The position numbers and the translations under genes were made by a program. Of a stretch of DNA of 8,333 bases, positions 7,579 to 8,242 are shown one piece after another (position 1 is the first letter of the stretch; every line of letters begins with the position of its first letter). This DNA is from Acidobacteriota bacterium (GTDB taxonomy: Bacteria; Acidobacteriota; Terriglobia; UBA7540). Where the stretch lies: contig JAJYJL010000276.1 in the NCBI GenBank assembly GCA_021789565.1, positions 1 through 8,333 of the forward strand, read 5' to 3'. The notes below the pieces were generated by a model that had not been told where the DNA came from, searched no databases, and saw only the letters and a list, made by a program, of their open reading frames with translations.

Positions 7579-8241
7579 AACGACACGTTGCCCGCCTTCG
7601 GAGTAATTCGAAGGCTGCACTCGGCTGTATGCGGGAACCTCCTTAGAGCTCAGCCTACGCTCAGATTCCTTGGGCGTAAAAATGGCTGGAGATTGGACAA
7701 TCCGCAGGAAAGCGTTCACGCGCGTTCCTCAGAGACTACACGCTGAGTATCCAGTTATCGATGCTATGGAACTTACTCCGGAATGGGTGGTCGGCTTTGT
7801 GGATGGCGAGGGTTGCTTTTTTGTGGGCATCCAGCGCAATCCGAAGACGTCCACAGGATATCAAGTAATCCCTGAATTCCGCATTGTCCAGCACATGCGG
7901 GACCTGCCGGTCCTGCACGGACTTAAGCGGTTCTTTGGCTGTGGCTCAGTTTGCCAAGACCACGAGGACCGTTGGGAGTTGCGGATTCGGAAACTGGAAA
8001 ACCTGCGGCAGGTCGCCGCCTTCTTCGAGAAGCATCCGCTTAAAACGAAGAAGCAGATTGATTTCCTCAAGTTTCGGGATGTTCTGCGCCTGATGAAGCT
8101 TCAAGAGCACTTGGCTCTTGAAGGCATCCGGAAAATAGCGTCGATCGCCAGTGGCATGAACACGTGCAAACGTGAAGCCATTAGGCACCTGCTGGATAAA
8201 GATATAGTCCATGCCGGCTTGAAAGAGCCGGAGACAACATG
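7579..8241 (+). mobile_element. Group I intron in 23S rRNA after the E. coli U1931 equivalent
   Basis: Removing 7579-8241 restores the conserved join CCTAAGGT|AGCGAAATTCC. The 5' exon ends in T and the intron in G, as group I introns require. Hand-paired core: P1, exon AAGGT (7574-7578) with GCCTT (7594-7598), giving the U-G at the splice site. P3, CTCGGC (7620-7625) with GCTGAG (7742-7747). P4, TGCGGG (7630-7635) with TCCGCA (7701-7706). P5 is probable, with CTCC (7639-7642) and GGAG (7688-7691). P6, GGAA (7707-7710) with TTCC (7725-7728). P7, GACTA (7734-7738) with TAGTC (8205-8209), a bulged A7733 and the G-C pair that would bind guanosine. P8, TATCCAG (7748-7754) with CTGGATA (8192-8198). 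P9, CCGGCTT with GAGCCGG (8214-8231) and a GAAA loop. The S motif AAGATATAGTCC is at 8199-8210. The endonuclease gene fills P8. Confidence 0.93.
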
Positions 8242-8242
8242 A
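7766..8242 (+). CDS. LAGLIDADG homing endonuclease encoded in the group I intron
   Basis: A 158-residue protein with one LAGLIDADG motif, VVGFVDGEG at 8-16. Its last acidic residue, E15, should bind the catalytic metal, and D13 is also conserved. A single motif implies a homodimer of the I-CreI type. The enzyme would cut intron-lacking 23S genes at the target near position 1931 and so spread the intron. Other I-CreI-like features are the beta-strand segment YQVIPEFRIVQ, the GCGSV turn, WELRIRKLENLRQV, and FFEKHPLKTKKQIDFLKFRDVL. The ATG at 7766 is chosen because MELTPEW starts the domain and lies just inside P8. The frame is open upstream to 7670, but that part is ribozyme core (P5, P4', P6, P7). 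The tail (D-K-D-I-V at 144-148 onward) is coded by P8', P7' and P9, and the TGA stop (8240-8242) takes its A from the 23S exon. No clear ribosome binding site is visible. Confidence 0.92.
   Translation: MELTPEWVVGFVDGEGCFFVGIQRNPKTSTGYQVIPEFRIVQHMRDLPVLHGLKRFFGCGSVCQDHEDRWELRIRKLENLRQVAAFFEKHPLKTKKQIDFLKFRDVLRLMKLQEHLALEGIRKIASIASGMNTCKREAIRHLLDKDIVHAGLKEPETT

Follow-up and report, generated by a model that had tools for sequence, protein, structure and literature searches.

Why does the stop codon of a homing endonuclease gene lie across the 3′ splice site of the intron that carries it, with two bases in the intron and one in the exon? This question is raised by a 23S rRNA gene in the 8,333-nt stretch of acidobacterial DNA analysed here (the window, by which the whole stretch is meant). 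The initial annotation regarded the arrangement as a coupling of splicing and translation. The locus is part of an rRNA operon whose features are as follows.

3209-4777: 16S rRNA, followed by tRNA-Ala, tRNA-Ile and, from 5440, 23S rRNA
5440-7578, + strand: 23S rRNA 5′ exon, ending CCTAAGGU at U1931 in E. coli numbering (Rfam RF02541 and comparison with E. coli rrlH)
7579-8241, + strand: group I intron at site L1931, 663 nt (Rfam RF00028 and exon junction)
8242-8333, + strand: 23S rRNA 3′ exon, starting AGCGAAATTCC... (Rfam and comparison with E. coli rrlH)

The group I covariance model RF00028, which had been proposed as a check, matches positions 7569-8231 with 58.7 bits (E = 3.2e-13; gathering score 50), and it places P8′ and the S motif where the initial annotation had them. 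When the exons 7559-7578 and 8242-8281 are joined, the predicted junction reads ...CCUAAGGU-AGCGAAAUUCC... and all 60 of 60 positions are identical to E. coli rrlH, with the insertion after U1931 that defines the L1931 family of rDNA introns. It should be noted that the boundary could be shifted by one base without altering the product, as A is the first base of the intron and of the 3′ exon alike, and that a boundary one base later would place the TGA entirely within the intron. Group I introns have a U.G pair at the 5′ splice site and a terminal G (omegaG) at the 3′ end. The boundary after G8241 was chosen by these rules, since U7578 lies opposite G7590 in P1 and G8241 is omegaG; this is the 3′ splice site that had been claimed. 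The 23S rRNA gene of this bacterium is thus predicted to carry a self-splicing intron.

Elsewhere in the same operon, the 23S rRNA gene carries two further insertions, at 5569-5707 and 6138-6252, bounded by 47-nt inverted repeats that are 77% and 81% complementary, respectively. Both resemble RNase III-type intervening sequences, and the second is similar, by eye, to the repeats of the 16S-23S spacer. Upstream of the 16S rRNA gene, at 2547-2758, a 36-nt and a 25-nt element are present in two copies 122 bp apart, probably through duplication of an rrn leader or promoter unit.

The ribozyme core and the reading frame within the intron were laid out on the same coordinates:

7576-7592, + strand: P1, GGUAAC (7576-7581) with GUUGCC (7587-7592), U7578 opposite G7590; pairing read from the sequence
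7732-7738, + strand: R motif and 5′ strand of P7, in which GACUA (7734-7738) pairs with 8205-8209
8192-8198, + strand: P8′, CUGGAUA, pairing with UAUCCAG (7748-7754); codons L-D-K (Rfam and sequence)
8199-8209, + strand: S motif, AAGAUAUAGUC (J8/7 and P7′); codons K-D-I-V (Rfam and sequence)
8214-8231, + strand: P9 hairpin CCGGCUU-GAAA-GAGCCGG with a GAAA loop, within the coding tail
7682-8242, + strand: LAGLIDADG_1 reading frame from its first ATG, 186 codons plus stop, open through P4′, P6, P7 and P3′
7766-8242, + strand: likely endonuclease gene (MELTPEW...), 158 codons, starting in the P8 loop, where most of the listed homologues start
8240-8242, + strand: split stop codon TGA, made of T8240, omegaG (G8241) and the first 3′ exon base, A8242

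The full frame extends from a TTG at 7670 to 8242, with ATG codons at 7682 and 7766. Read from 7670, it matches PF00961 with 90.3 bits, and it contains GFVDGEG with an acidic residue, D13, that is nearly invariant among 94 sequences. No Shine-Dalgarno-like stretch was seen by eye before 7682 or 7766, which agrees with a review that, in its section 8, ascribes weak signals for translation to such intron genes (PMC3073962). The predicted proteins of several homologues take in the stretch that corresponds to 7682-7754 (DWTIRRK...PQRL.AEYP), which is open in the window's frame as well; in these predictions it is probably core RNA translated in frame.

At the other end of the gene, the double use of bases is as the initial annotation described it: the codons at 8192-8239 also make P8′, P7′, P9 and the 3′ junction. 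CTG-GAT-AAA-GAT-ATA-GTC (8192-8209) is P8′ followed by the S motif, and the codons for K-D-I-V (AAA GAT ATA GTC) are the S motif itself. The TGA is likewise composed of intron T and G plus the first exon A, and the linear excised intron, which would end ...ACA-TG, is predicted to lack an in-frame stop. The further claim, that unspliced RNA alone has a stop, holds for the linear intron but not for a full-length intron circle, in which TGA would be restored since the intron begins with A. Moreover, as the frame and omegaG|A are fixed, a single base (T) is enough to produce the split stop, so it could arise cheaply by chance.

In order to place this locus among its relatives, we compared it with 18 other L1931 introns that carry a related gene, giving 19 with the window. 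Ten are from the phylum of a Pirellulaceae MAG (locus L001) and eight from the phylum of a Chlamydiae MAG (locus L002). Matching genomes numbered 5 of 294, 8 of 151 and 12 of 397, one genome being counted twice; 18 of the 24 distinct matching genomes were used, and the other six matched elsewhere. Dropped before counting were L003, L004 and L016 (repeats of L001 or L002), L071 and L072 (no L1931 exon downstream), and L008 and L068-L070, whose endonuclease genes lie at other places in 23S beside an intronless L1931 site. In L068 and L069 the stop, TAA, is 24 nt before L1931 exon base 1, perhaps near a 3′ splice site of their own. A second sample of the phylum of L001 yielded nothing further. 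At L1931, the RF00028 gathering score is reached in seven of the 18 (L001, L009, L062, L063, L065, L066 and L067); the other 11 fall below it and were placed by their exons and endonuclease gene. The 23S gene of L063 has, in addition, a second group I intron match (957-1229, 63.2 bits), which lies upstream of its L1931 intron.

The pairings of the core were examined across this set. P3 and P8 of the window can be read from the sequence and are present in the Rfam alignment, and P7 forms 5/5 pairs. Among the 16 of 19 introns in which both P7 strands were found (the search pattern missed one strand in L063, L065 and L066), pairs 1-3 are invariant, pair 4 is mismatched in six, and pair 5 is A-U in five, U-A in four and mismatched in seven. 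P9 has 85.9% standard pairs over the 19 introns, with 26 cells changed on both sides compared to a shuffled mean of 7.8; none of 500 shuffles was as high, and versions of the helix slid along the alignment gave at most 14. The number of P9 pairs with a both-sided change, six, was however reached in 107 of 500 shuffles. On most measures, the P9 helix is beyond chance. Compared with shuffles, the fold of the 50-nt tail has z = -4.35; in isolation the tail also pairs P8′ bases with P7′ bases as a hairpin, which in the full intron would be replaced by P8 and P7.

These pairings bear on the possibility that the intron is unspliced or poorly spliced here, in which case the stop would always be present and there would be no coupling. 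The 23S group I intron of Simkania is reportedly unspliced, judging from the title of a 1999 report by Everett, and this offers a precedent. The Simkania site is listed as L1931 in Table 1 of Haugen (PMC1995217). The core in the window, however, is intact, as judged by the complete P7, the supported P9 and the Rfam score above gathering, and we hold this reading to be highly improbable.

The positions of the stop codons, measured from exon base 1, range from -75 to +87 nt among the 19 L1931 genes:

stop before the S motif: L011 at -75, L010 at -57, L014 at -57
stop on the S motif, -49 to -35, 12 introns: L001, L005, L006, L007, L009, L012 and L062-L067
stop after the S motif but within the intron: L013 and L015, at -14 and -6
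stop across the splice site: the window, at -2
stop in the exon: L002, at +87

Apart from the window, 15 of the 18 genes end on or before the S motif, two later in the intron and one in the exon, i.e. 17 stop within the intron. L012 was considered as a broken gene, but its first stop is at residue 145, on the S motif (-44), and it was counted as intact. The split stop, for which alignment with other L1931 introns had been proposed, was found in none of the 18 other genes when the DNA was compared, so its conservation did not hold up. The S motif, too, is translated in different frames: AAA-GAT-ATA-GTC in the window versus AAG-ATA-GAG-TCC in L002, L013 and L015, a difference suggestive of more than one origin of the extension. 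The L002 gene crosses the splice site in another frame and, at the DNA level, has its stop within the exon, at +87.

Directly before omegaG, nine of the 19 introns have T and ten have C. We considered whether this T was selected as part of the stop codon. T-omegaG|A is also found in eight other introns although their genes end 35-49 nt upstream; a stop codon is thus not needed to account for the T, and the idea was set aside.

A wider view of the gene ends was obtained from homologues known as proteins only, namely 140 distinct proteins from the best 120 of 2063 and the best 120 of 593 matches. D-x-D-x-V-[HQR] is found near the C-terminus in 110 of the 140. The other 30 were set aside as motif-less, although one of them, P0121, carries the motif and was too short for the position filter. 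In the 110, which are related proteins so that the counts are not independent events, motif residue 4, left open in the pattern, is R in 86, I in 17, T in six and K in one, which are the only meanings of ANA. Residue 6, also left open, is Q in 62, H in 45 and R in three, the meanings of CAN or CGN (C[AG]N), while residue 2 is E in 101, K in seven and D in two, of which D does not fit RAA. That hydrophobic and charged residues replace one another within a single family of codons, deduced here from the proteins, points to a probable constraint on the RNA.

The ends of the same 110 listed proteins fall 7 residues past the motif in 54, 9 in 36 (the window's included), 1 in four and 13 in two. Since lengths of 7 and 9 dominate, the ends cluster near the splice site and tail length is not freely variable. 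The least expected result is that 14 of the 140 listed homologues read through the splice site into the 23S exon. They go on as ERNSLSGKFRPAR, which is the 23S exon AGCGAAATTCCTTGTCGGGTAAG... in frame, and the codon for E is omegaG plus AG. Nine residues lie between the motif and that E in 14 of 14. OmegaG is thus nine codons and one base past the motif, whereas in the window it is one base further on, and this one-base shift near the splice site separates the gene with the split stop from those that run into 23S.

Could the split stop then be an evolved switch, by which the full-length enzyme is made only from unspliced precursor and translation of the spliced intron ends in non-stop rescue, a negative feedback? 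The linear excised intron without an in-frame stop is what such a switch needs. Among the listed homologues, 36 of the 110 with the motif end at an equal codon count past it and 14 enter the exon, so a stop outside the intron may recur; ribosome occupancy of the intron core is described as causing a splicing defect in the case of I-TevI (PMC3073962). Against this stand the absence of a split stop from the 18 other L1931 genes, of which 17 stop in the intron and one in the exon, the presence of T before omegaG where no ORF reaches it, and the full-length circle, which would bring back TGA. We judge the switch quite unlikely. In a broader version, one clade of 23S intron endonucleases would need the host exon in order to end, the stop being completed by the first exon base or lying within the exon; a clean finish would then be had only on unspliced pre-rRNA, the free intron would trap ribosomes and limit output, and the arrangement would be restored at each homing. 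This version seems to us unlikely. As for the coupling claimed initially, ribosomes in the tail could reasonably disturb the core, for which I-TevI is a precedent (PMC3073962, section 8), but dependence on the split stop as an evolved feature is unsupported. Most likely, the split stop is a by-product of the overlap with the core and not a conserved switch.

The tail was then considered as part of the protein. An AlphaFold2 model of the 158 residues, built with 94 sequences, has a mean pLDDT of 86.1, and residues 145-158, encoded from 8198 on, form the sole run of three or more under pLDDT 50. Its best structural match is 5gkk, I-TnaI, with the same fold (TM 0.88, 60% identity, E = 8.4e-21, rmsd 1.0 over 143 columns). 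The 5gkk sequence file has 170 residues, compared to chains of 147 and 144 in the structure library, and these lengths suggest that the tail of I-TnaI is not resolved in the structure.

It is conceivable that the tail is selected as protein, e.g. for maturase-like binding of its own intron RNA, and that this keeps the frame open. The protein of the Thermotoga neapolitana 23S intron has maturase-like activity according to a review (PMC3984707), and the frame through the S motif is common to 110 of the 140 listed homologues, among them the T. neapolitana protein P0140. The residues of the tail, on the other hand, track the RNA code, with R, I, T and K swapping at one site; the tail is missing from 15 of the 18 other L1931 genes, whose stops fall on the S motif or ahead of it; and confidence in the modelled tail is low, which by itself does not prove the tail idle. 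Selection on the tail as protein thus appears very unlikely.

Taken together, the locus is likely a probably mobile L1931 group I intron whose LAGLIDADG gene has crept through the ribozyme core to a stop at T-omegaG|A. A single-motif LAGLIDADG homing endonuclease gene, akin to I-TnaI, sits in the P8 loop. Its end would have crept through P8′, P7′ and P9 in a frame where the S motif holds no stop, and the gene would end at the first stop then met, T-omegaG|A at the 3′ splice site. The approximately 16 extra residues would be RNA structure translated, probably with little role in the protein. Judging from the intact core elements, the pre-rRNA should fold and splice, while a minority of unspliced precursors may be translated into endonuclease. 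From its family, the enzyme would be expected to cut intronless 23S genes at L1931, and each homing event would complete the stop again with the A1932 of the target. A ribosome on the excised linear intron would meet no stop and would presumably stall. Points against this reading are the clustered tail lengths of the 110 listed homologues, the two D at motif residue 2 and the 11 loci that fall below the Rfam gathering score.

Core creep has been proposed as extension of the ORF by loss of stops, with variable ends and dispensable tails as its predictions (PMC3073962, section 7). The L1931 series fits the first directly, in the spread of stop positions; the second would agree, only indirectly, with the absence of the tail from 15 of 18 relatives, the pLDDT below 50 of residues 145-158 and the short chains of 5gkk.

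Overlap with the core is an already known kind of arrangement. The closest likeness is to the Synechococcus 23S introns at L1917, L1931 and L2593, which lie in the same gene, encode single-motif LAGLIDADG proteins and have ORFs that extend into the core, with two strains at the L1931 site (Haugen 2007, PMC1995217). In the worked example of that paper, L1917, the ORF stops in P9, whereas the stop in the window lies across the 3′ splice site. An LSU intron of Synechococcus lividus, its site unnamed in Table 1 of Edgell 2011 (PMC3073962), overlaps by 81 nt (P6/P7/P3/P8/P9.0/P9). The intron of Thermotoga neapolitana, which encodes I-TnaI (5gkk, P0140), is also at L1931 according to Table 1 of Haugen (PMC1995217), and its enzyme has the fold predicted here. 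The tail of I-TnaI, known here as protein, contains DEDTVH, the residues expected from the S motif in the window's frame, and ends 7 residues past the motif as against 9 in the window.

In I-TevI of the phage T4 td intron, too, the end of the gene contributes to P7, the tail is regarded as dispensable and ribosomes in the core harm splicing (Edgell, Chalamcharla and Belfort 2011, PMC3073962). That enzyme, however, is of the GIY-YIG type, is encoded in P6 with a 20-nt overlap and resides in a protein gene, td, and the accessible text of the review describes no split stop. I-ShaI and its kin in CPR bacteria are single LAGLIDADG_1 enzymes of 23S group I introns at sites 1917, 1931, 1952 and others (PMC11270868); overlap with the core or splice site, as in the window, is not discussed in the accessible part of that paper. 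The literature searched, which mostly lay outside subscription papers, yielded no description of an rRNA group I intron whose 3′ splice site is spanned by a stop codon or crossed by an ORF.

Mobile elements were searched as well. A protein scan of viral contigs found 37 LAGLIDADG loci, none with a 23S exon (exact pattern or up to three substitutions), and a DNA pattern scan gave five viral matches, all outside 23S and taken as chance. Plasmids yielded two Peribacillus records, each below 60% identity. The IMG/VR record of L019 (G447), a 44-kb virus contig, has nine LAGLIDADG matches, eight of them with in-frame stops, mostly TGA, which may reflect a changed code or decayed copies.

L1931 thus provides a graded natural series at one site. 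Some genes stop ahead of the core, others on the S motif, past P9, astride the splice site or in the exon of the host gene, and this makes core creep testable by comparison and by tail deletions. Annotators should be aware that many such proteins end in residues that are ribozyme or 23S rRNA read in frame.
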